36,488 nucleotides of DNA from a virus, in the IMG/VR virus record IMGVR_UViG_3300020421_000066, positions 1 to 36,488 of that record; one strand, given 5' to 3'. Positions 1,138 to 36,488 of the stretch are shown here, one piece after another (the first letter of the stretch is position 1; the number at the start of each line of letters is the position of its first letter). The notes under the pieces were generated by a model, which saw only the letters and a list, made by a program, of their open reading frames with translations, did not search any database and was not told the DNA's origin. The position numbers and the translations under genes are program-made.

Positions 1138-1725
1138 GTGAAAATTTATTTTGATGGTTGTAGTTTCTGTTGGGGTGGAGAACTAAAAGAAGAGGAAGAA
1201 AGATATAGTAAATTGGTCTGTGATGCACTGGGAGCCCATGAGTCTAATATGTCTAGACAGGGGTCAAGTAATTTTAGGATTGCCCGTCAGTGTCTGGTTA
1301 GATATAACATGAAGGATTACGATTTGGCAGTTATACAGTTAACTTATAATTCAAGAAATGAATTCTGGGATACAGAAAGGAGTAGGTTTACTCAGTTCAG
1401 TGTAAATCTAGCAGAGAGTAAAGGTAAATTATATAACAGATTCTATAAGGACATCTATGATCCCTTCTATGGAGACATGTATGAATATATGTTTGCTACT
1501 GCAATAAGGGATCACTGTAAGGTAATGGGAATACCACTTATATTACTTACTGTAGGTGTAAGTGAGAATAATAAGGTAAGTAAAACAAGATCAATGGATA
1601 AGAAGATTGATTGGGATATTGATATAACAGAGTTACTTCAATGGGATTGTTATGCACCTTTAGGTCATCCTAATCAAAAAGGGCATCAGAAGATTGCAAA
1701 TAAGATTCTAGAGATTGTAAATTAA
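1138..1725 (+). CDS. SGNH/GDSL-hydrolase-like protein
   Basis: The GTG start at 1138 is preceded by AGG seven bases upstream and puts the hallmark motif at the extreme N-terminus. Residues 6-10 (DGCSF) form the block I nucleophile region with Ser9. Residues 42-45 (GSSN) resemble the Gly/Asn oxyanion blocks. GHPNQKGHQ from residue 176 supplies the His of the C-terminal block. At 195 residues it is about the size of a minimal SGNH domain. The family comprises esterases, lipases and acyl- or acetyl-hydrolases; the substrate here is unknown, and a carbohydrate ester is a guess. The gene stands alone between a leader and a terminator. It is a shorter, diverged relative of the two SGNH genes at 4954-6491, with the same GCS and HP signatures. 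Confidence 0.7.
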   Translation: MKIYFDGCSFCWGGELKEEEERYSKLVCDALGAHESNMSRQGSSNFRIARQCLVRYNMKDYDLAVIQLTYNSRNEFWDTERSRFTQFSVNLAESKGKLYNRFYKDIYDPFYGDMYEYMFATAIRDHCKVMGIPLILLTVGVSENNKVSKTRSMDKKIDWDIDITELLQWDCYAPLGHPNQKGHQKIANKILEIVN

Positions 1726-3237: not shown

Positions 3238-3311
3238 CGGGACAGATGGGATTTGAACCCACGACCTCTGCCGTGACAGGGCAGCATTCTAAACCACTGA
3301 ACTACTATCCC
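3238..3311 (-). tRNA. tRNA-Asp (GTC)
   Basis: The minus strand folds as a full cloverleaf. The acceptor arm is GGGATAG/CTGTCCC with one G-U pair, and the discriminator base is G as usual for tRNA-Asp. The anticodon arm is CTGCC-CTGTCAC-GGCAG with anticodon GTC, and the T-arm loop is TTCAAAT. The 3' CCA is not encoded. It sits between the radical SAM gene and the membrane microproteins on the same strand and is probably cut from a longer transcript. It is the only tRNA in the window. Confidence 0.93.
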
Positions 3312-3339: not shown

Positions 3340-4617
3340 TCAGTATTTGGCAAGTATTGGAAAAGTATCTCGCCAATTTGTTCCACGACTAGCATCTAAT
3401 TTATCCAGATATAATTTGCATTTATTCCAGTCACCAACAGGGGTTTCTTTCATCATATCACGGTAAACACTTTCATTGATAGATCTAACATCATTTTTTA
3501 TTTTATCTTTTATATCGTCTGGAAGATTTCTAGGACGTAGAATTCTTGGATCCTCAAGGCGGTTATAGATTTGAAACTTACCAGTTGCATCACGGGTTTT
3601 CAAACCTTCTTTTTCAAGAAAATCAAAAGTTTCTTTCATATTAAGTATACCGAGGTTTGATGGTGTAAATGTTACACTGAGTCTTCCTTTTTTTGTAACA
3701 TTTAGCCATTTTTTAACTGAGCGAACATTCTTCAAGGTTGCCTCCCAGTCAGTTGGATATCTCAAATAATGATTGACTTTATCGATACCATCAACACTCC
3801 ACTGAATATCAAAAGATTTGAAAGCAGTGATATACTTCCTCATCTTCTTTAGAGTAAAGAGTGTCATATTAGAAACATAATCCAAAGCAATATATTTCGC
3901 ATGACCTGATGCTATAATTGCATCTAATAATTCAAAGTGGTTAGTCATCAGACTAGGTTCACCACCACAGAAAGATATATGAGAAACAATTTCAATATTA
4001 TCAATAACTTCGCTGATAATTTTGTAAAACTGAGTTCTATCTCTTTTTTTGACATCTACAGAGTGTATTAGGTTCTCAACGATTGATAGTTCTCTTCCCA
4101 GTTCTTTTACAATAGAAGGATCACCTATTTCTTTAAGTCTTTTATAGCGTGTTGTTGAATCTGCTGGATTGCATCCAATACACTCTAAGTTACATGGAAC
4201 ACCCCATATGTTTAATTGTAAAGATAAAAAACGTAAATTTCTATTCTTGATATTACCATTATCATCAAATATTTCTTTAATCAGTTCTGCTCTTTCTTTA
4301 GTGGTTTTCATCAAACGAGGTGAATTACCAGTTCTATCTTCCCTCTCTTTACACCGAGAGCACATAGATTTTATGAGACTATCATTACGATCTCCAGCAA
4401 GCATTGCCTTGCGAATATGAGTTTGAAAATCTCCACTAAACCATTCTTTGATGGGAGTAGTATTGATTGGATCTCTTTTATAACTATCTTCTTTATCAAT
4501 TTTTTTAGACCAACAACAAGGAACATACCCTGCTACAGGAGAGTTTCTAATATTATGGAACGGATAAGCACAAAATCCCCCTGCCATCAATTCACGATAA
4601 TTTTCGGGGGTCATCAT
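3340..4617 (-). CDS. Radical SAM protein with N-terminal twitch/SPASM-like domain
   Basis: A 425-aa 4Fe-4S enzyme that would cleave S-adenosylmethionine to a 5'-deoxyadenosyl radical. The cluster motif CxxxCxxC is C142, C146 and C149, followed by GGEP at 218-221. Ahead of it lies a twitch/SPASM-like module: FCAYPF at 15-20, CC at 34-35, a helix with a RKAMLAGD-like stretch near 69-76, and CxxC at 86-89. This probably binds an auxiliary iron-sulfur cluster. The domain order, auxiliary module first, matches the family known as twitch domain-containing radical SAM proteins, seen in marine phages. Substrate unknown; SPASM/twitch enzymes modify peptides, proteins or sugars. It starts Met-Met, and either Met could be used. 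It lies last in the accessory minus-strand cluster. Confidence 0.88.
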   Translation of the reverse strand: MMTPENYRELMAGGFCAYPFHNIRNSPVAGYVPCCWSKKIDKEDSYKRDPINTTPIKEWFSGDFQTHIRKAMLAGDRNDSLIKSMCSRCKEREDRTGNSPRLMKTTKERAELIKEIFDDNGNIKNRNLRFLSLQLNIWGVPCNLECIGCNPADSTTRYKRLKEIGDPSIVKELGRELSIVENLIHSVDVKKRDRTQFYKIISEVIDNIEIVSHISFCGGEPSLMTNHFELLDAIIASGHAKYIALDYVSNMTLFTLKKMRKYITAFKSFDIQWSVDGIDKVNHYLRYPTDWEATLKNVRSVKKWLNVTKKGRLSVTFTPSNLGILNMKETFDFLEKEGLKTRDATGKFQIYNRLEDPRILRPRNLPDDIKDKIKNDVRSINESVYRDMMKETPVGDWNKCKLYLDKLDASRGTNWRDTFPILAKY

Positions 4618-4646
4618 ATAAATATTTTATTATTACATATTATAAC

Positions 4647-4769
4647 ATGGATGATCTTGAACCAGGTATGGAAGACTCTTCTCTAGCAGAGGATCTCCAA
4701 GATAGGTTAGCTGAAGGTGAAATTATTTTTGTTCCTGATGACGATTGGATTGACCTTTTGAACGAGTAG
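4647..4769 (+). CDS. Possible 40-aa acidic hypothetical protein
   Basis: ATG 4647 opens a 40-codon frame ending TAG 4767-4769. The product is highly acidic (MDDLEPGMEDSSLAEDLQDR, then a PDDDWIDLLNE end) and looks like protein rather than chance sequence. It overlaps the 3' end of the minus-strand coiled-coil gene by 47 bases tail to tail. A hairpin with T-run follows at 4793-4826. No ribosome-binding site is visible; ATTATAAC just upstream could be a promoter for a nearly leaderless transcript. It is the only plus-strand gene within this minus-strand block. Confidence 0.45.
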   Translation: MDDLEPGMEDSSLAEDLQDRLAEGEIIFVPDDDWIDLLNE

Positions 4770-4935
4770 ATAATATTTCAATTTGTTTTTTTAAAAGGTG
4801 AACTTCTTGACGGAGTTCACTTTTTTCTTGTTTAAGTAGTTCGATTTCTTGTTCGTAAACAATTAGCATTTGTTCTAGTTGTACAACTTCATTTTCGAGA
4901 TCCCACCTCGGTTTGGGATAATGTTTTTCTTCCAT
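4723..4935 (-). CDS. Coiled-coil hypothetical protein (70 aa)
   Basis: Residues about 12-58 show continuous heptads of Leu, Ile and Val with Glu, Gln and Lys between them (for example LIVYEQEIELLKQEKSELRQE), so it is a nearly all-helical coiled coil with a short polar basic tail. ATG 4933-4935 has AGAGG six bases upstream, one of the better ribosome-binding sites in this cluster. It starts 18 bases after the SGNH gene stop at 4954. The coding sequence contains a symmetrical hairpin flanked by A- and T-runs (4793-4826). Probably a small structural or scaffolding protein; function unknown. Confidence 0.65.
   Translation of the reverse strand: MEEKHYPKPRWDLENEVVQLEQMLIVYEQEIELLKQEKSELRQEVHLLKKQIEILSTRSKGQSNRHQEQK
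4793..4826. terminator. Symmetrical hairpin with A/T flanks, candidate bidirectional terminator
   Basis: GTGAACT (4798-4804) pairs with AGTTCAC (4814-4820). The A-run before it and the T-run after it extend the stem, so either strand reads as stem plus Us. It follows the 40-aa plus-strand frame, as a terminator would, but lies inside the minus-strand coiled-coil gene. Confidence 0.4.
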
Positions 4936-4953
4936 CTGCCTCTGTACTATAAT

Positions 4954-5733
4954 TTAGACATTTAATATTGTCTTTAGATGATGGTCGAACAAAGAGCAAA
5001 TGGTCTGATTACCTTGACGAGTAGGGTGAAAACTATGACGATTTACCATCCCTACTCGTTCTAGATGCTTAATTCTATCACAATCAATCAACCAACTGCT
5101 CCAATGATAGGAATCATTTAATGTTTCAAGTCCTGTAACAGTAGCAAGTTGTGACATTAGGTCTTTTTTACCTGGTTGACCAAAGTCTAAATGATGGTTT
5201 TCTATTGTATTCGTCTCATTTAGAATATCAAACCAATAATGCCGAAATCCTTTGGCAGTAAAGTAGTCTTGCCAGTGACGAATATTAGATTTTAACGATT
5301 TTATTGACTCTTCTTCATCAAAATGGTCGAAAAAATACTTTTTAGGACTGAAATCTCCATATTTTTTGCTATTGTCTCTTGCTGAATCACCAAAAGAGAA
5401 TGATGAGTACATTTTTAGACCATTGAACCATAATTCATCCCTATAATAAGAAGTAATACCCCATAATATAATAGTATCATCTGGATTAAAGTCCCTATTA
5501 GAGAACAGTCTCGTTGCACGTCTAAATTGAGACTGATTAGCAGACCCACCTTTTGATTTGTTTATATTTTTTAGCTTATATTTCTCAGATAATAGTGTTC
5601 TCCATGCATATTTCTCTGTTTTTTCATTATCTAAACAGTACGTTTTATATGTTTCTAGGTCATCTGGGTTATCAATATCATATGATGCACCAACACCTGC
5701 TACCCAACTACACCCAAAGGTAACTAAGTTCAT
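4954..5733 (-). CDS. SGNH-hydrolase-like protein A
   Basis: 259 aa. The N-terminus FGCSW (6-10) carries the block I nucleophile Ser9. GGSANQ (62-67) supplies the Gly and Asn of the oxyanion blocks. A buried strand with ILWGITS follows. RHSFHPTRQGN places the catalytic-type His at 236. This fits the SGNH/GDSL esterase fold. It is a close tandem paralogue of SGNH protein B upstream (shared GCSW, RxxQFRxAT, LWGIT, KxDLMSxL and HPT blocks). Its ATG (5731-5733) overlaps the stop of B as ATGA. Probable role: hydrolysis or transfer of an acyl or acetyl ester, perhaps on a glycan. Substrate and location cannot be read, and no signal peptide is present, so cytoplasmic action is likely. Confidence 0.75.
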   Translation of the reverse strand: MNLVTFGCSWVAGVGASYDIDNPDDLETYKTYCLDNEKTEKYAWRTLLSEKYKLKNINKSKGGSANQSQFRRATRLFSNRDFNPDDTIILWGITSYYRDELWFNGLKMYSSFSFGDSARDNSKKYGDFSPKKYFFDHFDEEESIKSLKSNIRHWQDYFTAKGFRHYWFDILNETNTIENHHLDFGQPGKKDLMSQLATVTGLETLNDSYHWSSWLIDCDRIKHLERVGMVNRHSFHPTRQGNQTICSLFDHHLKTILNV

Positions 5734-6491
5734 GTTATTTCCTTCATAATCATGTCAGCAATAGCAACATGAGCCTCTTTTGTAGGATGGTAACTGTGTG
5801 GGTTTACTTTCTTTGCCTCTAATAGTACTTGAATACGTTTTGAATCAGTCATAGCGTACTGAGACATGTGATATCCCCAGTCATTTGATTCTAAATCATA
5901 GTAATTACACAATAAAGACATCAAATCTCTTTTAGGTTTATCCCCAAACAGCATATTTGGTATCCTTATATTATAATGGTGGTGATTAAATGTGTCAAAC
6001 CAGTAATTTTTTATACCAAGAGACTCAAAGAAGATGTTCCAATGCTTTATATTGTACTCTAATTGTTGTATTTCATTCTCATGGTCATAATTATTCTTTA
6101 AATATGACCTAGTATCTACTCCTGACTTCTCCATATTCTTATCATGAGCAAAACCATTACCATATAATAGGTTCACATACTGTTTTTTGTGGACACTATA
6201 GACATCATGTCTTGCTGTAGAGGTAATTCCCCATAAAACAATCATGTCAGGGTCATGTTTCTCACTGAAATACTTAGTTGCTAGTCTAAATTGTCTCTGA
6301 TTACTAGATCCCATCCTAGAAAGGTTGATATTCTTAGCACCTAGACGTTCTGCTATGTGAGTTCTGAATGCATATTTGGTACATATATCCTTATCTTCAT
6401 TAATTGCTTCATATTCTTCTCTAGACATTCCATGTTCATAACCAGAACCAGTGCCTTTTGTCCAAGAACACCCAAGAGTTACTAATTTCAT
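5730..6491 (-). CDS. SGNH-hydrolase-like protein B
   Basis: 253 aa from ATG 6489-6491. A TTG 27 bases upstream would add nine residues. The ATG is preferred because the product then starts MKLVTLGCSW, aligned with the paralogue's MNLVTFGCSW, and because the ATG overlaps the stop of a 34-codon gene as ATGA. Motifs: Ser9 in GCSW, GSSNQ at 61-65, VLWGITS in the core, and HSYHPT with His235. Same fold family and probable chemistry as its downstream neighbour A; the two differ most in the middle about 60 residues. The tandem arrangement suggests duplication followed by specialisation on different substrates. Confidence 0.78.
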   Translation of the reverse strand: MKLVTLGCSWTKGTGSGYEHGMSREEYEAINEDKDICTKYAFRTHIAERLGAKNINLSRMGSSNQRQFRLATKYFSEKHDPDMIVLWGITSTARHDVYSVHKKQYVNLLYGNGFAHDKNMEKSGVDTRSYLKNNYDHENEIQQLEYNIKHWNIFFESLGIKNYWFDTFNHHHYNIRIPNMLFGDKPKRDLMSLLCNYYDLESNDWGYHMSQYAMTDSKRIQVLLEAKKVNPHSYHPTKEAHVAIADMIMKEIT

Positions 6492-6592
6492 GACGGTATA
6501 GTAAGCATTATTTTCCAAGCACGTTGATATTTGTCTCTAACCAGTTTCTGTATCATCAACATGGTCATAAAAGTCATCTGATAGCACTTCAT
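6488..6592 (-). CDS. 34-aa microprotein coupled at both ends
   Basis: ATG 6590-6592 overlaps the stop of sulfotransferase A (TGA 6589-6591) as ATGA. Its own TGA (6488-6490) overlaps the ATG of SGNH protein B as ATGA. The 34-aa product is Met-rich at its N-terminus (MKCYQMTFMTMLMIQKLVR) with a basic middle and a hydrophobic end. The double overlap is hard to explain by chance and fills an otherwise odd gap. It may be a real microprotein, or a leader whose translation carries ribosomes from one enzyme gene to the next. Function unknown. Confidence 0.65.
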   Translation of the reverse strand: MKCYQMTFMTMLMIQKLVRDKYQRAWKIMLTIPS

Positions 6593-7611
6593 TTTTTCCA
6601 TGATGTAGGCATGTAACCGAATGTTGACTCAAAGTCTTTGTAGTATGTATTCATATAGAAGAATGCTTGGTCATAATCATCAGCATTTAGGTCTTCAAGG
6701 TCAGACAACCACTGGTCTTCAAGGAATTCGTATTTAGGAGCATTGCTACCCATGTCAGGAACGTATACATTTTCGTGAAGAGTTGTAACTTGGTAATTTA
6801 GGAAGTTTGAAAGACTGGAAAGTTGCTCTTTTTCTTGCTCTTTATCCCATAAGTCTTCCATTATAGTAACATAACAGTTCTCTGTTCCAAATACATTGCT
6901 ATATTTAAGATAAGTGCCCGCAAAATCACATAATTCACTGAATTCATGTCGTTGTAATTTGTAAAAAAACAGTTTTTTATGTTCTTTTTTCCTCATCATC
7001 AATTTTTGTACCAAAGGTACCTTATAAGACATTATCGGACAGGTTACATAGTCTGAAGTTAGGTCTGGTGTAGCAAAATCTTCACAAAGTGACCCAATTT
7101 CCGAAAAATAACGTCTAATTGGATCTCTAAATTGAAAAGTGACCTTTACATTGAAGTGTTCTCGCAATTTAGGAGCTATTTCTTGTAAAAAATCATATGA
7201 TAACCCCAAATTTCCATTTGTAAAGTCTGCAACGGCAGCATAATCATCTTTTACGACTTCCCAAAGACTCAAATAGTAAGAAATATAATTTTCAATTGAT
7301 GCAGGTGTTGTTAAAAATGGTTTTAGGTCAACTTTAGTAGAATATTTGTTATAAAATGCTAAAATTTCACCCCAAGGATGTTCTCTCGGTCTTTTTCCTT
7401 CTTTAGGTCTTTTTCCAAGTTTTCTTCCGAAATACATGTTATTAAATTGTTTTCTAATATCATCAGTTTCATTGGATAATTTTTTTAAATACCAATTCTC
7501 CTTTTTATGCCCCATATGAGCATATTTGTTGTCTAGCGTCAAAGTATAATGAAAAGGAGTTGTTGCTGCCCAGCCACAACCAGGATTTAGTAATAGTGTT
7601 GGTTTGGACAT
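6589..7611 (-). CDS. Sulfotransferase-like protein A (degenerate phosphosulfate loop)
   Basis: 340 aa. It resembles PAPS-dependent sulfotransferases: an N-terminal strand and loop (GCGWAATTP, 11-19) in the place of the 5'-phosphosulfate loop, and RDPIRRYFS (162-170) matching the R-x2-P-x2-R-x2-S 3'-phosphate motif. A paralogue lies head to head at 7794-8690; shared blocks include DY-A-ADF, the TIMED stretch and YVPDMGS-AP. The loop here reads WAATT where the paralogue has WSGTT, so the usual Ser-Gly is lost and activity may be reduced or altered. Residues about 66-78 are a Lys/Arg/Pro-rich insertion. Predicted to transfer sulfate to a carbohydrate or similar acceptor in the cytoplasm. It heads the accessory minus-strand cluster. 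Confidence 0.72.
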   Translation of the reverse strand: MSKPTLLLNPGCGWAATTPFHYTLTLDNKYAHMGHKKENWYLKKLSNETDDIRKQFNNMYFGRKLGKRPKEGKRPREHPWGEILAFYNKYSTKVDLKPFLTTPASIENYISYYLSLWEVVKDDYAAVADFTNGNLGLSYDFLQEIAPKLREHFNVKVTFQFRDPIRRYFSEIGSLCEDFATPDLTSDYVTCPIMSYKVPLVQKLMMRKKEHKKLFFYKLQRHEFSELCDFAGTYLKYSNVFGTENCYVTIMEDLWDKEQEKEQLSSLSNFLNYQVTTLHENVYVPDMGSNAPKYEFLEDQWLSDLEDLNADDYDQAFFYMNTYYKDFESTFGYMPTSWKK

Positions 7612-7638
7612 ATATAGAATTAGGCGAAAGGAGGACGA

Positions 7639-7797
7639 ATGTCTTATGATGTCTACATAGACAAGAATATTGCCTTCTCTGATTTATCTAAGGAAGAAGC
7701 AGAGAAAATTGAACTGATGGGAAGGCAAATGATCATTGCAGGGGTAAAGACTAACTACACTCCTGAACAAATACATATTGAACTTCATTCGGAATGA
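7639..7797 (+). CDS. Hypothetical protein (52 aa) upstream of sulfotransferase B
   Basis: ATG 7639 follows AAAGGAGG with ideal spacing, the best ribosome-binding site in the accessory region. The frame ends TGA 7795-7797, overlapping the ATG of the next gene as ATGA. The product begins MSYDVYIDKNIAFSDLSKEE and contains a helical middle with an IEL-HSE end. No domain recognised. The strong ribosome site plus coupling suggest it is made in quantity and also delivers ribosomes to the sulfotransferase gene. Only 27 bases separate it from the divergent start at 7611. Confidence 0.8.
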   Translation: MSYDVYIDKNIAFSDLSKEEAEKIELMGRQMIIAGVKTNYTPEQIHIELHSE

Positions 7798-8690
7798 AAC
7801 CCACCCTATTTTTGAACGTTGGTACTGGTTGGTCTGGTACTACTCCTTTATATTATACATTAGGATGGAAAAATAAGTATTGTCACAGTGGACATCGTAA
7901 AGAAAAGGGATATTTGTGGTTATTGCAGTTACAAGAACAAAAAAGAGTAGTAGAAAGAGTAAAATTTTATAAAAAGTTTTTTGGACCTTCAAGAAAGTCT
8001 ACAACTAACAGAAAACCTCGAATATTTACTCATGAGTCCCAATATGTTAAGGGTTTATGGACTGATGAGGAGATAAAGAAGTTTTGGTCTGCACCATTTA
8101 CTATTAAGAAGTATATTGACTATAATTTGAAGAATTGGGATAATATAAAACATGATTATAAGGCAACTGCTGATTTTAGTAATCCTAATGGGTTTTGTTG
8201 TAGTGGATTACTTGAAGAAATCGCTCCTGAACTAAAAAAGCACTTTGATGTTAAAGTTCACTTTGTTTTCAGAGATCCTATTGCAAGATTGTGGTCTATG
8301 AGGCAAAAACAGAAACCAGATGACCCATTGAGTCATTTTTTACGTTCTGGTGTTGATTTTGACTATGTGGACATGTATGGTAACTGGGAAGTTGCATTTG
8401 GTCGAGATAATATCCATATAACCATTATGGAAGACTTCTGGAACGGTCATACGAAGCCTTTAAGTGATTTTATAGGATTTCCTATAGGAAAGGTACATCC
8501 AAACGCTTATGTGCCCGATATGGGGTCAAAGGCACCTCATATAGAGTATTTGAATGATCAATGGGAGTCAGATGTCATGGATATGACTCCAGAGATCATG
8601 GTAGAAGCAAAAAGGATGATGGAACCCGTTTATATGAATTTTAAGAATTATTTTGGTAAATTGCCTTCTCGTTGGGTTTTTAATTCTTGA
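7794..8690 (+). CDS. Sulfotransferase-like protein B
   Basis: 298 aa. The loop GTGWSGTTP (10-18) fits the 5'-phosphosulfate-binding signature with Ser-Gly-Thr-Thr. RDPIARLWS (160-168) fits the 3'-phosphate motif. It is a clear paralogue of the divergent 340-aa gene, with the same N-terminal start (KPTL-LN), the DYKATADF block, ITIMEDFW and YVPDMGSKAP. It lacks the basic insertion of A and is about 40 residues shorter. Predicted to use PAPS to sulfate a glycan or small molecule; acceptor unknown. Translation is coupled to the 52-aa gene by ATGA. Its last 43 bases overlap a convergent minus-strand gene. Confidence 0.8.
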   Translation: MKPTLFLNVGTGWSGTTPLYYTLGWKNKYCHSGHRKEKGYLWLLQLQEQKRVVERVKFYKKFFGPSRKSTTNRKPRIFTHESQYVKGLWTDEEIKKFWSAPFTIKKYIDYNLKNWDNIKHDYKATADFSNPNGFCCSGLLEEIAPELKKHFDVKVHFVFRDPIARLWSMRQKQKPDDPLSHFLRSGVDFDYVDMYGNWEVAFGRDNIHITIMEDFWNGHTKPLSDFIGFPIGKVHPNAYVPDMGSKAPHIEYLNDQWESDVMDMTPEIMVEAKRMMEPVYMNFKNYFGKLPSRWVFNS

Positions 8691-8824
8691 GATAGTCCCA
8701 TACTTTCCATTATTGGTGTATGATCTGGTAAATCGACACCAGGAGCTAATATTGCTGTTGTTGCAGACATAGAAAGTGCTGTAAATGCAATACTAACATG
8801 CATTAGTTCAAGAAGTTCTGCCAT
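8648..8824 (-). CDS. Small protein with N-terminal hydrophobic segment (58 aa)
   Basis: The minus-strand ATG at 8822-8824 shares a base with the stop of the 92-aa gene (TAATG). The frame ends TAA 8648-8650, overlapping the end of sulfotransferase B tail to tail by 43 bases. Residues about 9-27 (HVSIAFTALSMSATTAILA) are hydrophobic and could be a membrane anchor or an uncleaved signal. The rest is polar (APGVDLPDHTPIMESMG and a basic end). Coupling to the upstream gene and the membrane-like segment support it. Function unknown. Confidence 0.6.
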   Translation of the reverse strand: MAELLELMHVSIAFTALSMSATTAILAPGVDLPDHTPIMESMGLSQELKTQREGNLPK

Positions 8825-9102
8825 TAGTCGAATTTGAAGATGTTATCTAATTTTGCACTTAGAGCATCAATTTTTGCTTCTAAAGCATGACTATGCTCTA
8901 ATGAGTGTTCTAATTTTTCTAGTATAACATCAAATTCGCTACGTTGCGTAAAATCAATACAATCGGTACTTATATCGACTGAACCCTCAAAATTCCCTAT
9001 TGTTTCAGATATTGGTATTACTCCATCATTTGCTGTTGAAATAGTAATTCCATCTATAGGTTCTGTGGATATACCTGATGGTGGTACAGGATAAGTGTTC
9101 AT
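8824..9102 (-). CDS. Hypothetical protein with C-terminal coiled coil (92 aa)
   Basis: The N-terminal about 50 residues are low in charge, rich in Ile, Ser, Thr and Gly, and look beta-structured (for example GITISTANDGVIPISETIG). The C-terminal about 35 residues are a short amphipathic helix (FDVILEKLEHSLEHSHALEAKIDALSAKL). The start is ATG 9100-9102. A late-promoter motif lies 20 bases upstream on the same strand, and a 58-aa gene is coupled to its stop. Late expression and the beta-then-coil layout would suit a small virion or trimerising protein, but no family is recognised. Confidence 0.7.
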   Translation of the reverse strand: MNTYPVPPSGISTEPIDGITISTANDGVIPISETIGNFEGSVDISTDCIDFTQRSEFDVILEKLEHSLEHSHALEAKIDALSAKLDNIFKFD

Positions 9103-9122
9103 AGTTTTTTGGGAGTTGGATT

Positions 9123-9130
9123 TATTTATT
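9123..9130 (-). promoter_or_regulatory. T4-type late promoter for the 92-aa gene
   Basis: The minus strand reads AATAAATA, matching the NATAAATA late-promoter core known from T4-like cyanophages, 20 bases before the ATG at 9102. The site indicates late transcription of this small minus-strand pair. Confidence 0.5.
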
Positions 9131-9176
9131 TGGAAAAATGTGTTATACTACATACTCTTGTCCTAATCGATATATC

Positions 9177-9296
9177 ATGATTAAATTGTGGAGATGGTTA
9201 TTAGGTGAATACAAATTATGGAAACTTCGTCGTCAAGATCCCTTTATCTACGAGGGTGATGACGAAGATGACTACGACGAGGACGATGTTGCTTGA
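9177..9296 (+). CDS. Small protein with acidic tail (39 aa)
   Basis: ATG 9177 opens a 39-codon frame ending TGA 9294-9296, six bases before the carbamoyltransferase start. The first about 20 residues are basic and Trp-rich (MIKLWRWLLGEYKLWKLRRQ). The last about 15 are almost all Asp and Glu. The sharp charge division looks like a real protein. A TATACT box lies at 9144-9149. Function unknown; the amphipathic basic helix could touch membranes or nucleic acid. Confidence 0.6.
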   Translation: MIKLWRWLLGEYKLWKLRRQDPFIYEGDDEDDYDEDDVA

Positions 9297-9302
9297 CAAG
9301 GT

Positions 9303-10691
9303 ATGATTGGTTTTTCAGAAGGATTTCACGATGCTGCTGTAGCAGTAGTGAATAATGATGAGATTCTCTTCGCTGCACATTCAGAGCGTTACTCTAAGAA
9401 GAAGCACGATAAGAAATTGGATTTACATTCGGCATCCATTGCCCAGTGTATGAATATGTTTGATGAGACGGTTGCTTTTTATGAGAATCCGTTAATCAAG
9501 AGATCTAGGCAATTAGTTGCTGGACAGTCTGCATGGAGGAAAGAAAGAAATTTAGCATTAGAACCAACGGTTTATTTTGACCATCACAAGTCACATGCTG
9601 CTGCAGCCTTCCAAACTTCATCATTTGATAGATCTGCATGTGTTGTAATTGATAGTATTGGAGAATGGGATTGTTCTTCTATTTGGATTGCTGAAATGTC
9701 CAATGGTAAGGCAACATATGAAAAAGTGTGGTCTAGACAGTATCCTAACTCTTTAGGTCTATGGTACTCTGCTTTGACTAAATGGGCAGGTTTGAAACCA
9801 TTAGATGAAGAATATGTCTTCATGGGAATGGCAGCCTTCGGAGAACCCAGTCATACCAAGGCATTAGAGGAACTACTTTCTAAGAATAATCATAGGGGTA
9901 TAAGAGGACTGGAAGGTAAAGATGTTGATGTTGCAAAGAGTGCAGAAGTTGTTTTAGAGGAAGAAGTGGGTAAACTCTTCCAAATGGCAACTAAGTACAG
10001 TGATAATATTTGTTATGGGGGTGGCGTTGCACTAAATTGTGTGGTAAACTCTAAAATACAAAAAAGATTTAGTGACTATAATATCTGGATAATGCCAAAT
10101 CCAGGTGATGCAGGTGCTGCATTAGGAGCTGCTTTACTAGCAAATGAACAGAAAGTCCAATTCTCGCCATACCTCGGTCATAACATCAATCGCAAGATTG
10201 ATCCGAAAGAAGTGGTTAACTGCATACTCAAAAATAAAATCGTTGGTGTTGCAAATGGTCGTGCAGAGTTTGGTCCTCGTGCTCTTGGTAATAGAAGTCT
10301 TTTGGCGGATCCAAGAGAAATTTCCACAAAAGATCTCGTCAATACGATCAAGCAAAGGCAGAAGTTCAGACCATTTGCTCCAGCTATTCTGGAAGAGCAT
10401 TGTCACGAGTATTTTGATATGCCTGACTGTAGTCGCTACATGTCTTATACTTATCAATGTAACCTTCCAGACGCTATACCTGCCTGTCTACACGTTGATA
10501 ACTCAGCTAGAGTACAAACAGTCCCCGAAACCTCTGAGAGCATCCTGAGACCGATTCTAGAGTGCTGGTACGAACGTACTGGTTGTCCTGTACTATTGAA
10601 TACTTCTTTGAATATTCGTGGAATGCCTATGGTCAATGACTGGGATGATGCAGAATTGTTTGCCGAAAAGTACTCCGTAGACGTATTCTAA
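9303..10691 (+). CDS. Carbamoyltransferase (NodU/CmcH family)
   Basis: 462 aa. It matches the family that transfers a carbamoyl group from carbamoyl phosphate, via carbamoyl-adenylate, to a hydroxyl of a sugar or antibiotic. The N-terminal domain has GFHDAAVAVV and SERYSKKKHD, then DHHKSHAAAAF (histidine-rich metal site) and VIDSIGEW. Next come EEYVFMGMAAFG and YGGGVALNCVVNSK, and PGDAGAALGAA. The C-terminal domain has EFGPRALGNRSLLADPR, KFRPFAPAIL, HVDNSARVQTV and CPVLLNTSLNIRG. Family members are usually nearer 550-600 aa, so this is a compact form with every expected block still present. Related genes are widespread in marine T4-like phages; the acceptor is unknown. It lies between a small gene and a glycosyltransferase-like gene on the same strand. 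Confidence 0.93.
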   Translation: MIGFSEGFHDAAVAVVNNDEILFAAHSERYSKKKHDKKLDLHSASIAQCMNMFDETVAFYENPLIKRSRQLVAGQSAWRKERNLALEPTVYFDHHKSHAAAAFQTSSFDRSACVVIDSIGEWDCSSIWIAEMSNGKATYEKVWSRQYPNSLGLWYSALTKWAGLKPLDEEYVFMGMAAFGEPSHTKALEELLSKNNHRGIRGLEGKDVDVAKSAEVVLEEEVGKLFQMATKYSDNICYGGGVALNCVVNSKIQKRFSDYNIWIMPNPGDAGAALGAALLANEQKVQFSPYLGHNINRKIDPKEVVNCILKNKIVGVANGRAEFGPRALGNRSLLADPREISTKDLVNTIKQRQKFRPFAPAILEEHCHEYFDMPDCSRYMSYTYQCNLPDAIPACLHVDNSARVQTVPETSESILRPILECWYERTGCPVLLNTSLNIRGMPMVNDWDDAELFAEKYSVDVF

Positions 10692-10706
10692 ATAAGGTGG
10701 TATAAT
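10678..10706 (+). promoter_or_regulatory. Sigma-70-like promoter before the glycosyltransferase gene
   Basis: TAGACG (10678-10683) and TATAAT (10701-10706) are separated by 17 bases, a good fit to a host-type promoter. The start codon follows 24 bases later. The -35 part overlaps the end of the carbamoyltransferase gene. Confidence 0.5.
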
Positions 10707-10729
10707 TGATTTGCTAAGTCTTTCGTTTT

Positions 10730-11491
10730 ATGGCTAAAGGATTTAAGGTGGTTACGACTCCACCTGATGAAGAAACAAAAAAGTCAAATGATTTTGATAT
10801 TGAAAAGGCAAAAGAACTCATAAAGGGTAAGACTTTTGTATTCTGCCTACCTGGTAGAAATGTTTCATATATCTTCCTAAAGAACTTTGTTCAACTCTGT
10901 TTTGAGATTGTTCAGCGTGGTGGGGCAATACAAATCTCACAAGACTATTCATCGATGGTCAACTTTGCACGTTGTAAGTGTTTAGGTGCTAATGTTCTTC
11001 GTGGACCTGATCAATTACCTTGGGATGGTAAACTAAAGTATGATTATCAACTTTGGATTGATTCAGATATAGTATTTGGATTAGAGCAATTTTATCGTCT
11101 AATTTGGATGGATAAGGATCTTGCTGGTGGTTGGTATGTTACTGAAGATGGACAGACTACATCTGTTGCTCATTGGTTAGAAGAAGATGACTTCAAAGAG
11201 AATGGTGGAGTCATGAACCATGAAATGTTAGATGGTATTCAAAAACGTCGTAAACCTTTCCAAGTTGATTATGCTGGATTTGGTTGGTTGCTAATCAAGC
11301 ATGGTGTCTTTGAAAATGAGAAAATGAAGTATCCTTGGTTTGCACCTCAAATGCAGGTGTTTGAATCTGGTGAAGTTCAGGATATGTGCGGTGAAGATGT
11401 GTCTTTCTGCTTAGATGCTGAAAAGGCAGGTTTTGAAATTTGGATAGATCCTAAGTGTCGTGTAGGACATGAGAAAACTAGAATCTTATAG
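10730..11491 (+). CDS. GT-A-type glycosyltransferase-like protein
   Basis: 253 aa. A nucleotide-sugar-dependent transferase fold is suggested by WIDSDIVF with the DSD metal-binding motif at 111-113. Before it is an N-terminal strand (TFVFCLPGRNVSYIFLKNF, 35-53) and a segment ending MVNFARCKCLGANVL, as in family-2-like enzymes. After it are AGGWYV (132-137), DYAGFGWLLIKHGVF, and near the C-terminus CGEDVSFCLDAEKAGFEIW, ending in VGHEK. The first about 33 residues are charged and probably flexible. Donor and acceptor unknown. It follows the carbamoyltransferase and its own host-type promoter. Alternative: a phage glycosyltransferase that modifies DNA, but no modified-base genes are seen here. 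Confidence 0.75.
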   Translation: MAKGFKVVTTPPDEETKKSNDFDIEKAKELIKGKTFVFCLPGRNVSYIFLKNFVQLCFEIVQRGGAIQISQDYSSMVNFARCKCLGANVLRGPDQLPWDGKLKYDYQLWIDSDIVFGLEQFYRLIWMDKDLAGGWYVTEDGQTTSVAHWLEEDDFKENGGVMNHEMLDGIQKRRKPFQVDYAGFGWLLIKHGVFENEKMKYPWFAPQMQVFESGEVQDMCGEDVSFCLDAEKAGFEIWIDPKCRVGHEKTRIL

Positions 11492-11528
11492 ATAAGTTCA
11501 TACTGGACATATCTACAGGATTTTGTAA

Positions 11529-11687
11529 ATGGATCGCTACGACATAATAATTAATGGTGAGAAAGTGCATGAAGCGGTCTCAGAAGAAGAAATGGAAGAA
11601 ATCACGTTTGATTTAGCAGACGAATTCTACCAAGTTGGCTTCCCACATCCAGACGACGTAGAGGTCGTTTATATCGGTACAGAGTAA
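11529..11687 (+). CDS. Small acidic hypothetical protein (52 aa)
   Basis: ATG 11529 opens a 52-codon frame ending TAA 11685-11687, directly against a strong terminator. The product (MDRYDIIINGEKVHEAVSEE, then an acidic helix and VEVVYIGTE end) looks like a compact alpha/beta protein. AGGA lies about ten bases before the start. No family recognised. It closes the accessory gene block before the late operon. Confidence 0.78.
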   Translation: MDRYDIIINGEKVHEAVSEEEMEEITFDLADEFYQVGFPHPDDVEVVYIGTE

Positions 11688-11711
11688 AGGGTTCGCAAGA
11701 ACCCTTTTTTA
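11686..11711 (+). terminator. Strong intrinsic terminator
   Basis: An 8-bp perfect stem (11687-11694 with 11699-11706) has a GCAA tetraloop and a run of Ts (11705-11710). It separates the accessory genes from the late structural operon. Confidence 0.9.
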
Positions 11712-11724
11712 TTGCCTCTAAATA

Positions 11725-11732
11725 GATAAATA
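11725..11732 (+). promoter_or_regulatory. T4-type late promoter for the baseplate operon
   Basis: GATAAATA matches the NATAAATA late-promoter core, 20 bases before the GTG start of gp25 and just after the terminator. Confidence 0.7.
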
Positions 11733-11752
11733 CACAAGATTATAGGTCACAA

Positions 11753-12157
11753 GTGCCTCTTCAGAGAACGTCGCAAGGATTTAAGGATATTTCCTTATCC
11801 ATGATGCGTCATCCAGTCACAAATGATATATTAGCTCTGAAGAATGAGGATGCAATAAAGCGTTCTGTACAAAATTTAGTTCGTACCAGATTAGGTGAAG
11901 TTTTCTTCAATAATACTTTAGGAACTAGAATTACAGGAGCATTATTTGAACTTGCTAATACTGATTTTATTGATCCTATAAAGACAGAAATAGAGACTGT
12001 CCTTGATAACTATGAACCAAGAGTAAGTCTTACTGATACAGAGGTCAATGCTTTTCCTGATGATAATTCTTTGGAAATTACCATTCGGTACGATATTATT
12101 GGAATAAGTGCACCGTCCCAATCGATAAACTTCGTTTTAGAACCGACTAGACTATAA
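11753..12157 (+). CDS. 25: Baseplate wedge subunit gp25-like
   Basis: 134 aa. It matches the gp25/GPW-type baseplate protein that joins the sheath's first disc to the baseplate wedge. The conserved core includes ALKNEDAIKRSVQNLVRTRLGEVFFNNTLGTRI (27-60), with the Glu of the LGE stretch and the family's LFE element. After it come the FIDPIKTEIETVL helix and a final beta-hairpin ending SINFVLEPTRL. Length is typical. The start is GTG 11753 with AGG upstream. It opens the late operon, and its stop overlaps the gp6 ATG (TAATG at 12155-12159). Confidence 0.92.
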   Translation: MPLQRTSQGFKDISLSMMRHPVTNDILALKNEDAIKRSVQNLVRTRLGEVFFNNTLGTRITGALFELANTDFIDPIKTEIETVLDNYEPRVSLTDTEVNAFPDDNSLEITIRYDIIGISAPSQSINFVLEPTRL

Positions 12158-14061
12158 TGGCACTAACCCAGTTTACAAACTTAAATTTTGAGGATATAAA
12201 AACCTCAATAAAAGACTATTTGAAAGAGAATTCAGAATTCACTGATATGGATTTTGAAGGGTCTAACCTTTCAATGTTGATCAATATATTAGCATATAAT
12301 TCATATAGTACAGCATATAATACAAATATGGCAGTGAACGAGACGTTCATTGATTCTGCCACACTAAGAGAAAATGTAGTATCATTAGCAAGAAATATTG
12401 GTTATGTACCACGTTCTAGACGTGCTGCAAGAGCAACGTGTGACATACTCATAACAGGAATAACTACTACAGCAACACAAGCAGTAATTCAACCTGGTGT
12501 GGTTGCTAATGGTAATATTTCCAACGTAAACTATATTTTCTCTCTACCAGAGGCAACTACTATACTTGCTGACAATGGACAAGCAAATGGAAATATTGAG
12601 GTTTTTCAAGGTCAATATTTGACTGCTGATTGGGTTGTAAACGATTCTCTACCAAATCAACGTTATGTACTTCCTAATAATGGAATTGATACTTCTACGA
12701 TCACTGTAAAGATAAGAAATAGTGTATCTGATAATACTTCTACTGAATATACTTTAGTTGACAATATTGTTGGAATCACTTCACTTTCTAACATATATTT
12801 GATTCAAGAAACAACTGATGAGAAATATGAGTTATTATTTGGTGATGGAGTTTTTGGTAAGAAGTTAGAATCAGGTAATGTCATTAGTGCAAGTTATATC
12901 AAGACTGAGGGTAAGGAAGGAAATGGGGTTGCTGCTTTCAATTTTGTAGGTAGTATAAACAATGAAGATGGTGCTCAAGAAGATAATTTCGATGTTGATC
13001 TAATTCCACATGAATCTTCAGGAAATGGAGATGAAATAGAGTCAGTAACGTCAGTAAAATATTATGCACCTCGGTTATATGCTTCTCAACATAGAGCAGT
13101 AACTGCGAATGACTATGAAGCAATCTTACCGAGTATATACCCTAATATTGAATCTGTAAGTGCATATGGTGGAGAAGATCTTACTCCTCCTCAGTTTGGT
13201 AGGGTATTCATAGCAGCTAAACCTAAGAATGGTTCATTCTTATCTGAGTTGACTAAGAAGGAACTTCTAAACTCACTCAAAAACTATACTATTGCTGGAA
13301 TTGTTCCATCATTCATTGACCTCAAGTTCTTATATGTTGAGGTTGATAGTTACGTTTACTATAATGCCAACTTTGTTGGTGATTTAGAGAATTTGAAGAC
13401 TCTAGTGATGAGTTCACTAACCACTTATGCAAGTGGCACAGAGCTCAATAAATTTGGTGGTAGATTCAAGTATAGTAAGGTATTATCTACTATTGATGGA
13501 GTAGATACTGCTATTACATCAAATATAACTCTTGTGAAAATGAGAAGGAATTTGATTGCTAAAATTGATCAGTATGCACAATATGAACTTTGTTATCTAA
13601 ATCAGTTCTACAATCCAAATAGTCAGTATAACGTTCGTTCTACTGGATTTAATGTAGCAAGTGTTGTTGGAACCTGCTATTTGAGTGATAGTAAGGTTAC
13701 TGAGACTACTGGTACATTGTTCCTCTTCCAGATACTAGAAGATGGTACAGTCAAGATTATATCAAATACCTTAGGTAAAATAGATTATGTTAAAGGCGAA
13801 TTGATCCTTGATACGATCAATATCACTGGTACACTTCTTCCTGATAATGTTATTGAAGTTGAGGCAATTCCTCAATCTAATGACGTTCTTGCAAAAAATG
13901 AATTATATCTTCAGTTTTCTGTAGATAAAAGTGATTTCTATATGAGAGAAGATTCAATATCCACTGGTGCAAATACTTCTGGATCTAGATTCAATCCACA
14001 GTCTAGTTACTTCTCAGATTCTAAGGTTCGTGGTGCCATTATAACTAGCACTGGAGAATAA
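12157..14061 (+). CDS. 6: Baseplate wedge subunit gp6-like
   Basis: 634 aa, close to the 660 of T4 gp6. In T4, gp6 forms the continuous inner ring of the baseplate through dimers. The N-terminal domain fits the family: FTNLNFEDIKTSIKDYL, then LSMLINILAYNSYSTAYNTNMAVNETF and ATLRENVVSLARNIGYVPRSRRAARA. The middle contains a baseplate-J-like stretch (PRLYASQHRAVTANDYEAI, about 307-325, and SVSAYGGEDL). The C-terminal half is beta-rich and more diverged. It is coupled to gp25 by TAATG. The order gp25-gp6 followed by large wedge proteins is that of T4-like cyanophages. Confidence 0.92.
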   Translation: MALTQFTNLNFEDIKTSIKDYLKENSEFTDMDFEGSNLSMLINILAYNSYSTAYNTNMAVNETFIDSATLRENVVSLARNIGYVPRSRRAARATCDILITGITTTATQAVIQPGVVANGNISNVNYIFSLPEATTILADNGQANGNIEVFQGQYLTADWVVNDSLPNQRYVLPNNGIDTSTITVKIRNSVSDNTSTEYTLVDNIVGITSLSNIYLIQETTDEKYELLFGDGVFGKKLESGNVISASYIKTEGKEGNGVAAFNFVGSINNEDGAQEDNFDVDLIPHESSGNGDEIESVTSVKYYAPRLYASQHRAVTANDYEAILPSIYPNIESVSAYGGEDLTPPQFGRVFIAAKPKNGSFLSELTKKELLNSLKNYTIAGIVPSFIDLKFLYVEVDSYVYYNANFVGDLENLKTLVMSSLTTYASGTELNKFGGRFKYSKVLSTIDGVDTAITSNITLVKMRRNLIAKIDQYAQYELCYLNQFYNPNSQYNVRSTGFNVASVVGTCYLSDSKVTETTGTLFLFQILEDGTVKIISNTLGKIDYVKGELILDTINITGTLLPDNVIEVEAIPQSNDVLAKNELYLQFSVDKSDFYMREDSISTGANTSGSRFNPQSSYFSDSKVRGAIITSTGE

Positions 14062-34174: not shown

Positions 34175-34513
34175 ATGGCAGTTCCTGTAGTTAATATACA
34201 AATTGAACAAGGGACTGATTTTGAAGCTGCCTTCACAATCAAGAAGGCTGATGGAACTCGTTATAATTTGACGAACACTACCCTGTCTGCCAAGATGAGG
34301 AAGTGGTCTGGATCTTCTGGATACATCGGTTTTGGTGTAACCTTTGGTGCAGTACCTGCTAATGGTGTTATTACCATATCTCTTACAGATGCTCAATCAG
34401 GTATTATTACATCAGGTAGATATAATTATGATATCTTAGTACAAGATAATGTAAGTACTAAGATAAACAAAGTGATTCAAGGTCAAGCTCAAGTAAATGA
34501 CACAGTATCATAA
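34175..34513 (+). CDS. Small virion-like protein (112 aa)
   Basis: The product begins VNIQIEQGTDFEAAFTIKKADGTRYNLT, a beta-sandwich signature of phage baseplate upper-fibre N-terminal domains (BppU-like), and continues as alternating strands through RYNYDILVQDN. No cysteines or catalytic motif. It follows a late promoter. Its stop overlaps the next ATG (TAATG). Probably a connector or small tail/fibre component; the family link is by pattern only. Confidence 0.7.
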   Translation: MAVPVVNIQIEQGTDFEAAFTIKKADGTRYNLTNTTLSAKMRKWSGSSGYIGFGVTFGAVPANGVITISLTDAQSGIITSGRYNYDILVQDNVSTKINKVIQGQAQVNDTVS

Positions 34514-35032: not shown

Positions 35033-36488
35033 ATGGCTGCACCTGTTTTACAGTTTAAACGGGGTAATCTAGCTGCACTTCCAGGTTTACAAGCAGGTGA
35101 ACCAGGATTTGTTACAGATACCTACGATTTGTTTGTTGGAATTGACTCAACAACAGGCAATAATAAATTTGTTGGATCCCATCGTTACTGGACAAAGGAG
35201 ACCACTACCACTGGTAGTGCTGTCAAGGTTGTTGAAGGTACCGATAATGGATCTAGTTACATAGAGTTGAAAGCTCCTGCAAGTTTAGGAGCAAATGAAA
35301 CTTACATCTTACCTGCCACTGCAACTAATGCAGGTTTCCTAAAGGTAGATGGAAGTGGAAATATGTCTTGGGATGTTAACCCAGGATCCTCTGGTACCAC
35401 AGAGATTGCTAATATCAATATTGATGGTGGTACAGATATCGGTGCTGCTATTGCAGATGCTGATCTATTCATAGTTGATGATGGTGGTGGTGGAACTAAT
35501 AGAAAGACTACTGCTTCACGAGTAAAAGACTACGTTCTTGGTGGTGGACAAGGAGCAAACTTCTCTGCTATATCAGTATCTGGTATTGGTACTGTAACGT
35601 TTGCTGATACCACGACCTTGAAGGTTGGTGCTGGTGCAACTGTTACTGGTGCTCTAGACGTAGATGGAGGTGCTAACATAGCATCTGGTCTTACTGTTAC
35701 TGGTGGTGCTACAGTAAACTCATTACAGGTTTCTGATCTTACAGACAACCGTGTTGTTATTGCTGGTACTTCTGGAGAACTAGAAGATAGTGGTAACTTA
35801 ACCTTCGATGGTTCCACATTAGGTGTTACTGGTACAGTAAACGCAACTCAATTCACTGGATCTGGTGCTGGTTTATCTGCTGGTACAACTCCAGTTACAA
35901 CATTAGATATAGACGGTGCTACAGACATTGGTGCTGCTATTGTAGATGGTGATGAGTTTATCATCGATGACGGTGGTAATGGAACTAACAGAAAGACTGA
36001 TGCTTCTAGAATCAAGGACTACGTTCTTGGTGGTGGACAAGGTGCTAACTTTAGTGCTATAAACGTCAGTGGTATTACAACTGCTACATTCCTAAAGGCA
36101 ACTACAGCAACAGTTGGTGCTGGACTAACAGTCACAGGTGCTCTTGATGTTGACGGTGGTGCTAACATCGCTTCTGGACTTACCGTAACTGGTGGAGCTA
36201 CAGTTGGTGGTGCTGCTGATTTCAATGGTGGAGTAACAGCTAACACATTAGTTGTTGAAGATCTTACAGACAACAGAGTTGTTATTGCTGGTTCTGGTGG
36301 AGAACTAGAAGACAGTGGTAATCTAACCTTCAATGGTTCTGAGTTGGGTGTTACTGGTACAGTAAACGCTTCTTCTACAGTTACTGCTTCTGCATTCCAT
36401 ACAGGTGCTGAAGGATCTGCTATTAGAGTTACATCTAATACCATTTCTGGTCCTGCGACCATGACTCTTGACCCTGCTGGTGTTGGAG
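35033..36488 (+). CDS. Repeat-built tail-fibre-like protein, 3' end outside window
   Basis: ATG 35033 opens a frame without stop to the window end (485 residues seen). The N-terminal FKRGNLAALPGLQAGEPGFVTDTYDLFVGI is a common phage-fibre attachment start. After about 120 residues come repeats of period 163 residues (489 bases): TDIGAAI, TNRKT-ASR-KDYVLGGGQGANFSAI and GALDVDGGANIASGLTVTGGATV recur. The second copy gains 12 residues before LTDNRVVIAG. The composition is Gly/Thr/Val-rich and nearly Trp-free, like a beta-helical fibre stem. It probably binds host receptors at its unseen C-terminal end. Confidence 0.85.
   Translation, partial: MAAPVLQFKRGNLAALPGLQAGEPGFVTDTYDLFVGIDSTTGNNKFVGSHRYWTKETTTTGSAVKVVEGTDNGSSYIELKAPASLGANETYILPATATNAGFLKVDGSGNMSWDVNPGSSGTTEIANINIDGGTDIGAAIADADLFIVDDGGGGTNRKTTASRVKDYVLGGGQGANFSAISVSGIGTVTFADTTTLKVGAGATVTGALDVDGGANIASGLTVTGGATVNSLQVSDLTDNRVVIAGTSGELEDSGNLTFDGSTLGVTGTVNATQFTGSGAGLSAGTTPVTTLDIDGATDIGAAIVDGDEFIIDDGGNGTNRKTDASRIKDYVLGGGQGANFSAINVSGITTATFLKATTATVGAGLTVTGALDVDGGANIASGLTVTGGATVGGAADFNGGVTANTLVVEDLTDNRVVIAGSGGELEDSGNLTFNGSELGVTGTVNASSTVTASAFHTGAEGSAIRVTSNTISGPATMTLDPAGVG
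35441..36418 (+). repeat. Long tandem repeat in the fibre-like gene (period 489 bp)
   Basis: GGTGCTGCT-containing DNA at 35441 recurs at 35930, 489 bases on, and most of the sequence between recurs after that. The second unit carries a 36-base insertion, so the LTDNRVVIAG region is displaced by 525 bases. The two copies differ at many synonymous positions. Confidence 0.8.

Follow-up and report, generated by a model that had tools for sequence, protein, structure and literature searches.

A sulfotransferase–SGNH gene island beside the baseplate genes of one uncultivated cyanophage clade: a candidate route to virion decoration

The IMG/VR virus record IMGVR_UViG_3300020421_000066, a 36 kb fragment of 36,488 bases analyzed whole and referred to here as the window, carries beside its T4-type baseplate genes an island encoding sulfotransferase-like proteins, SGNH hydrolase-like proteins, an O-carbamoyltransferase and a twitch-type radical S-adenosylmethionine (SAM) enzyme. 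The island is a trait of one uncultivated cyanophage clade, and is present in every sampled member. The explanation we favor, with a probability of roughly 0.45, is that it serves virion decoration across the clade: cytosolic enzymes would sulfate, carbamoylate and edit the acyl groups of a glycan on the tail or its fibers, using 3'-phosphoadenosine 5'-phosphosulfate (PAPS) from the host. More tentatively still, this may be a cyanophage clade with phage-encoded virion sulfation, in which fast-turning sulfotransferase and SGNH paralogs on a sulfated, carbamoylated and acyl-edited tail glycan amount to a variable surface code.

The core of the island occupies a few kilobases. Two long-type SGNH hydrolase-like genes lie on the minus strand, SGNH1 (4954..5733) and its paralog SGNH2 (5730..6518; 36% identity, likely start ATG at 6491), followed on the same strand by sulfotransferase A (6589..7611), which is transcribed divergently from sulfotransferase B and is about 40% identical to it. 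Sulfotransferase B (7794..8690) and a NodU/TobZ-type O-carbamoyltransferase (9303..10691) are encoded on the plus strand. Further left sits the radical SAM gene (3340..4617, minus strand) and, outside the core block, a third SGNH/GDSL hydrolase-like gene of short type, recognized by family alignment (1138..1725, plus strand). To the right, all on the plus strand, come a conserved glycosyltransferase (GT)-A-like gene (phrog_1574; 10730..11491), the baseplate wedge gene gp25 as fixed right-hand neighbor (11753..12157), the wedge gene gp6 (12157..14061) and very large gp7–gp10-type genes. The original prediction, which read this stretch as a carbohydrate-decoration island beside the baseplate operon, had placed its named enzyme genes correctly in every case.

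Profile scans returned 69 viral loci for a six-sequence sulfotransferase profile and 24 for a radical SAM profile. In dozens of IMG/VR contigs the block lies directly upstream of GT-gp25-gp6, and across the fetched loci, over a wide range of divergence, one order recurs: [SGNH]n-[sulfotransferase]n-carbamoyltransferase-[SGNH]-[radical SAM]-GT-gp25-gp6. Within 10 kb, as many as seven sulfotransferase genes (L050, L065) or eight SGNH genes (L063) are found. The window has its radical SAM gene on the minus strand, to the left of the SGNH genes, whereas in relatives such as L009 it is found between the carbamoyltransferase and GT genes on the plus strand, so that the association has outlived a rearrangement.

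A tree of GT, gp25 and gp6 together gathers the 28 island-carrying rows, the window included, into one group with support of 100, and the remaining 45 rows carry no island; a single change of state accounts for every presence and absence. No island gene was seen in the non-clade rows, which offer at least 3 kb of upstream sequence in 20 cases and at least 5 kb in 12. The combination had been thought perhaps specific to this phage; it is instead common to all 28 rows of the clade. Clade members are taken to be cyanophages because two long clade contigs (192 kb and 122 kb) hold psbA/psbD-type genes, and the window itself has the T4-type gp25 and gp6. Where loci were picked through the neighboring GT gene, regardless of the island, 11 clade loci have 5 kb or more of upstream sequence; carbamoyltransferase and SGNH genes are present without exception (11/11 each), sulfotransferase genes in 8/11 and the radical SAM gene in 5/11, which argues for a stable core and an optional radical SAM gene. 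The radical SAM gene and the copy numbers do vary independently between relatives, which the original prediction had set against a joint function; the core of carbamoyltransferase and SGNH genes with sulfotransferases does not. Four clade members (L098, L111-L113) have several SGNH genes and a radical SAM gene with no sulfotransferase in the flank, possibly representing island subtypes.

In 50,697 phage records the only genome matched by sulfotransferase B or by the radical SAM protein is AG-345-D19, save for a distant radical SAM match (22%) in two Vibrio phages; SGNH2 matches nothing. The carbamoyltransferase family is found in 134 records, at 67% identity in AG-345-D19 and no more than about 39% elsewhere, and the GT-like protein in 105, mostly at 60–80%. 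The expectation that the individual genes occur in other marine T4-like phages therefore holds for the GT-like gene and, distantly, for the carbamoyltransferase, and the remaining genes were not found in the cultured phages searched. The gp6 closest to that of the window is likewise from AG-345-D19 (62%; isolates reach 53% or less). Its contigs carry the radical SAM, carbamoyltransferase, SGNH and sulfotransferase genes (L007), GT-gp25-gp6-gp7 (L267) and gp10-fiber-sulfotransferase (L266). The AG-345 sort plate holds extracellular virus particles (PMC6122165), so the block is no metagenome chimera. Assembly chimerism is ruled out by this single-particle genome together with a near-identical independent contig, L008, and chance clustering by the recurrence of the block at the same position in dozens of contigs and by its confinement to one branch of the tree. 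A tRNA-Asp(gtc) gene marks the left edge of the block (3238..3311, minus strand); as a general insertion mark it was rejected, since of the clade loci scanned only L008 shares it and the other 14 lack it.

Across the island families, pairwise ratios of nonsynonymous to synonymous substitution (dN/dS) have medians of 0.12-0.21, approximate values with high dS that come from wider pairs; the window and L008 differ too little. The sulfotransferase and SGNH paralog families are under purifying selection. The co-occurrence sought in other cyanophage genomes was found, and with constant location, shared descent and this selection it bears out the view of the island as a unit beside structural genes.

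Singly, the two sulfotransferases of the window match no Pfam sulfotransferase family. A profile of their 42-member family matches PDB entry 3RNL (6e-8) and, less strongly, heparan sulfate 3-O-sulfotransferase 5 (3e-4), and its PDB matches include no tyrosylprotein sulfotransferase. An AlphaFold2 model (mean predicted local distance difference test, pLDDT, 91.3) draws sulfotransferases in all of its first 38 Foldseek PDB matches, with a best E of 1.6e-6 and modest template-modeling (TM) scores of about 0.4-0.6; these are PAPS sulfotransferases, including heparan sulfate 3-O- and N-sulfotransferases. Sulfotransferase B displays G10-x-G12-W13-x-x-T16, R160-D-P-x-x-R165-x-x-S168 and K36-E37, and sulfotransferase A is assigned by the family profile. 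The 3' phosphate-binding residues R160, P162, R165 and S168 are kept in 47/47 representatives, K36 is invariant and E37 is present in 43/47; the pair resembles the KE motif found at the catalytic base in 3-O-sulfotransferases. In common with PAPS carbohydrate sulfotransferases—the heparan sulfate 3-O/N superfamily and bacterial 3RNL—the family thus has the fold, R-D-P-x-x-R-x-x-S, the K-E pair and a glycine-rich 5' loop ending T-T/S. It departs from them in its tandem multiplication, in falling outside the Pfam families when copies are taken singly, and in lacking a relative in 84,980 cellular genomes by pattern search, a method that needs short conserved peptides and could miss distant relatives. 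The nine long clade contigs examined encode no adenosine 5'-phosphosulfate (APS) kinase, so phage-made PAPS was rejected and the donor is assumed to be supplied by the host.

For the SGNH proteins, a model with pLDDT 93.4 has GDSL/SGNH esterases as its top Foldseek PDB matches (to 2e-5), including carbohydrate esterases and PatB, and other members of the short-type family match Lipase_GDSL_2 at up to 2e-5. The fold of SGNH1, which has Ser9 and His236, was assigned from its AlphaFold2 model and Foldseek. Among 69 sequences, split into 29 of long type and 40 of short type (alignment A6), 66 retain Ser and His, together with an invariant Asn: the block I nucleophile Ser is found in 26/29 and 40/40, the block V His in 26/29 and 40/40, and in the short type Ser9, Asn45 and His177 are invariant (40/40). 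Of the classical motifs, the block V Asp (DxxH) is not conserved, position -3 from the His being variable, and block III has no GxND. On these grounds the claim, from model and alignment, extends to the SGNH fold and stops short of classical SGNH catalysis; a Ser-His dyad together with a different Asn may be at work. The fold, the Ser and His and a conserved Asn are shared with SGNH/GDSL esterases such as the polysaccharide-deacetylating tail proteins of phages and the O-acetyltransferase PatB, from which the island proteins differ in that the DxxH Asp is not conserved. According to the literature SGNH domains act within tail proteins of other phages, whereas those of the island are predicted to be free-standing and cytosolic, stand in arrays and are unfused to a fiber. 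Three array-end paralogs (L009:2240-3046, L019:4061-4906, L023:2216-3040) no longer have the Ser, nor in most cases the His, and may be pseudoenzymes.

The carbamoyltransferase is certainly NodU/TobZ-like by its sequence, with both its N- and C-terminal domains above cut-off (PF16861 7e-51, PF02543 3e-36), PDB relatives that include GdmN and TobZ, and the active-site motifs HDAA(9), HHKSHA(94), GDAGAALGAA(268) and GRAEFGPRALGNRS(319). It shares domains and motifs with NodU/NolO/TobZ enzymes and with the 'Nol-like' family of many cyanophage isolates (phrog_1601), from whose genes it forms a separate lineage. The island gene adjoins GT-gp25; in isolates, P-SSM2 and S-SSM7 among them, tens of kilobases separate the two. 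The radical SAM protein scores 251 bits with the NCBIfam model NF033640 ('twitch domain-containing radical SAM'), whose cut-off is 170; its CxxxCxxC (Cys141/145/148) and auxiliary-cluster cysteines (Cys15/33/34/85/88) are all invariant in 22 sequences, its weak family matches include peptide maturases, and the pattern search, with the limit already given, found no cellular relative. The earlier sulfotransferase-like, SGNH, twitch radical SAM and carbamoyltransferase calls are thereby upheld. For the GT-A-type call, the GT-like protein offers an invariant D111-S-D113 (DSD) and a weak match to the glycosyltransferase family phrog_34859 (8e-6). The gene is real, and its inclusion in the accessory set was rejected, since it is a conserved core cyanomyovirus gene that forms the right border of the island.

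How might these proteins act together? The island proteins of the window contain no membrane segment and no signal peptide, and so would work in the cytosol. The favored explanation pictures soluble enzymes made there: sulfotransferases that draw on PAPS, an O-carbamoyltransferase that depends on ATP and carbamoyl phosphate, SGNH proteins acting as acyl-hydrolases or acyltransferases and, where a member has it, the twitch radical SAM enzyme. With the conserved GT-like protein beside gp25, these enzymes would assemble and trim sugars bearing sulfate, carbamoyl and edited acyl groups on tail proteins, most likely the fiber or baseplate. Duplication and turnover of sulfotransferase and SGNH genes would then shift the pattern of charged groups, and with it tail contact with host surfaces or evasion of recognition. 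What points to sugars is the company that the enzymes keep: sulfotransferases closest by sequence to heparan-type enzymes, a carbamoyltransferase of a sugar-modifying type, acyl-editing SGNH proteins, a GT-like neighbor, and tail genes at both sulfotransferase sites. The nucleotide-sugar genes close to another sulfotransferase-SGNH cluster, in L184, also count in its favor.

The second of these sites emerged when further copies were sought in the nine long contigs. Sulfotransferase genes lie behind the fiber gene and before the next structural genes in L180, L181 and L182, and likewise in L054, L188, L200 and AG-345-D19; among fiber loci from outside the clade, none has them there. Judged by gene position, these extra copies tip the choice between virion and host surface toward the virion. 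Three further observations belong to these contigs. Among the fiber-linked sulfotransferases of one genome is a TRAP-type (DctP) solute-binding protein (L180:13962-14915, in the contig of L024 at ~43,960-44,910; PF03480 2.5e-32), odd cargo for a lytic phage. In the same contig one sulfotransferase copy (74,532-75,209) is interrupted by a single in-frame TAG and is probably decaying. Conserved P-loop-like 'TGPQGSGNHLF' proteins, sulfotransferase- or kinase-like and with no Pfam or PHROG match, are encoded on the opposite strand behind the fiber gene (L180:12144-12776, L181:15416-16820, both minus).

Late expression would suit proteins that modify the tail. TAAATA motifs of a T4-type late promoter (GATAAATA at ~11725) lie upstream of gp25 in the window (11719..11734, plus strand), and ATAAATA precedes gp25 in 60/70 loci against a permuted-motif mean of 9, and long SGNH genes in 16/89 against about 4. 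A naive count had seemed positive; measured against permuted motifs, only these two exceed expectation, and the motifs suggest timing that is partly late.

Several points weigh against the virion-glycan proposal. The late-promoter motif is not enriched over permuted motifs before the sulfotransferase, carbamoyltransferase or radical SAM genes, and the fiber-linked sulfotransferases occur in only part of the clade. The GT assignment is weak, with neither a PDB profile match nor a Pfam match. The Lys or Arg usual in the 5' phosphosulfate loop of PAPS carbohydrate sulfotransferases is absent from the island family (0/47; Trp in 41, Phe in 5, His in 1), for which reason the family is filed as sulfotransferase-fold proteins with probable PAPS binding, from motifs and model, rather than as proven sulfotransferases. 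Tyrosylprotein sulfotransferases also appear in the top Foldseek matches, so the acceptor could be a protein tyrosine. Finally, the acceptor is one that we infer: it would be a glycan, it would sit on the virion and its modification would benefit the phage, and both the step from fold to activity and that from activity to a virion acceptor would have to hold.

The main rival, and a serious one even if on the unlikely side, is that the host surface is modified instead: lipopolysaccharide or exopolysaccharide would be altered during infection, blocking superinfection or the loss of progeny onto cell debris. The enzyme types suit the decoration of surface polysaccharides, and earlier expression is possible for the three enzyme families without enriched late promoters. 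Nucleotide-sugar genes occur in the same genomes as well; in L184 a sulfotransferase gene, three SGNH genes and a eukaryotic-type phosphomannomutase gene cluster together (8925-11948), and mannose-6-phosphate isomerase and sugar-nucleotide dehydratase genes lie a few kilobases away (17768-18971). O-antigen conversion cassettes, however, carry a membrane flippase and a glucosyl- or acyl-transferase, and the block lacks genes for a flippase, an anchored acyltransferase or any other membrane protein. Its location is also tied to the baseplate and, for the extra copies, to fiber genes.

Two further alternatives are improbable to a similar degree. Metabolic genes are frequent in cyanophages, and the island might make or detoxify a sulfated or carbamoylated host metabolite, with the gp25 neighborhood merely an insertion site that tolerates cargo. 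That all island proteins are predicted to be soluble fits such a role, as does the TRAP-type protein amid the fiber-linked sulfotransferases of one genome; the strict location, the multiplication of only two enzyme families and the link of extra copies to the fiber gene do not. The other, a shade less probable, keeps the tail as target and dispenses with the glycan: fiber residues would themselves be modified, by sulfation of tyrosine, carbamoylation of side chains and radical SAM chemistry. The tyrosylprotein sulfotransferases among the structural matches, the peptide maturases among the weak radical SAM matches and the fiber-linked copies all lend it some credit. Against it, the sequence profile reaches heparan sulfate 3-O-sulfotransferases and no tyrosylprotein sulfotransferase, the NodU/TobZ carbamoyltransferases whose activity is known modify sugars or hydroxyl groups of small molecules, and SGNH esterases are better suited to acyl sugars. 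DNA hypermodification, in which the carbamoyltransferase would make 5-carbamoyloxymethylcytosine and the other enzymes add further groups, is very improbable: the same superfamily is proven on 5-hydroxymethylcytosine (PMC8670742) and the window has a DNA methyltransferase gene at 1773-2738, but carbamoyltransferase and thymidylate synthase are reported together only in modified contigs (PMC8670742), the thymidylate-synthase-family deoxycytidine monophosphate hydroxymethylase (PF00303) that such a pathway requires was not found in the nine clade contigs (192, 122 and 119 kb among them, partly incomplete; controls positive), and no DNA role is known for sulfotransferases or SGNH proteins.

Each enzyme family here is known; what appears to be new is a multi-paralog sulfotransferase/SGNH island at a fixed baseplate site in one uncultivated clade. 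The literature searched holds no description of this enzyme combination in cyanophages, nor of phage-encoded sulfation, which is hardly documented. The closest working analogy is the Nod-factor set, where one glycan receives carbamoyl (NodU) and sulfate (NodH) groups and undergoes acyl editing, the same trio of decorations. The island differs in being phage-encoded and in showing no NodA/B/C backbone genes in the block, and no common origin is implied. Other phages link sugar enzymes for virion glycosylation to their structural genes; the island would add sulfation and carbamoylation, and would do so with multiple paralogs. One sulfotransferase family has been multiplied up to seven-fold at a single locus of widespread marine phages. 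Should the substrate prove to be the virion, tail chemistry would become a new layer of host recognition and evasion in the phages of marine cyanobacteria; should it be the host surface, a new system of infection-time remodeling would be at hand. The fixed locus, the clade restriction and the list of conserved residues make either reading directly testable on recombinant proteins.

Smaller features complete the window. Between and beside the island genes lie a lineage-specific coiled-coil protein with no assigned role (4723..4935, minus strand), a lineage-specific hypothetical protein (8824..9102, minus strand) and an open reading frame (ORF) of about 52 amino acids with an AGGAGG ribosome site that overlaps the start of sulfotransferase B through ATGA (7639..7796, plus strand). 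The first 1.1 kb (1-1100) has hardly any ORF longer than 60 amino acids, which is unusual for such a phage. The methyltransferase gene on the minus strand at 1773-2738 is of the N6/N4 type (PF01555 1.8e-53), and few relatives have one. At the far end, on the plus strand, an L-shaped tail-fiber assembly-type protein (phrog_3304; 34175..34513) precedes a tail-fiber-like protein (35033..36488), which carries the annotation 'tail fiber-like' in S-B05 and other isolates and runs off the end of the window.

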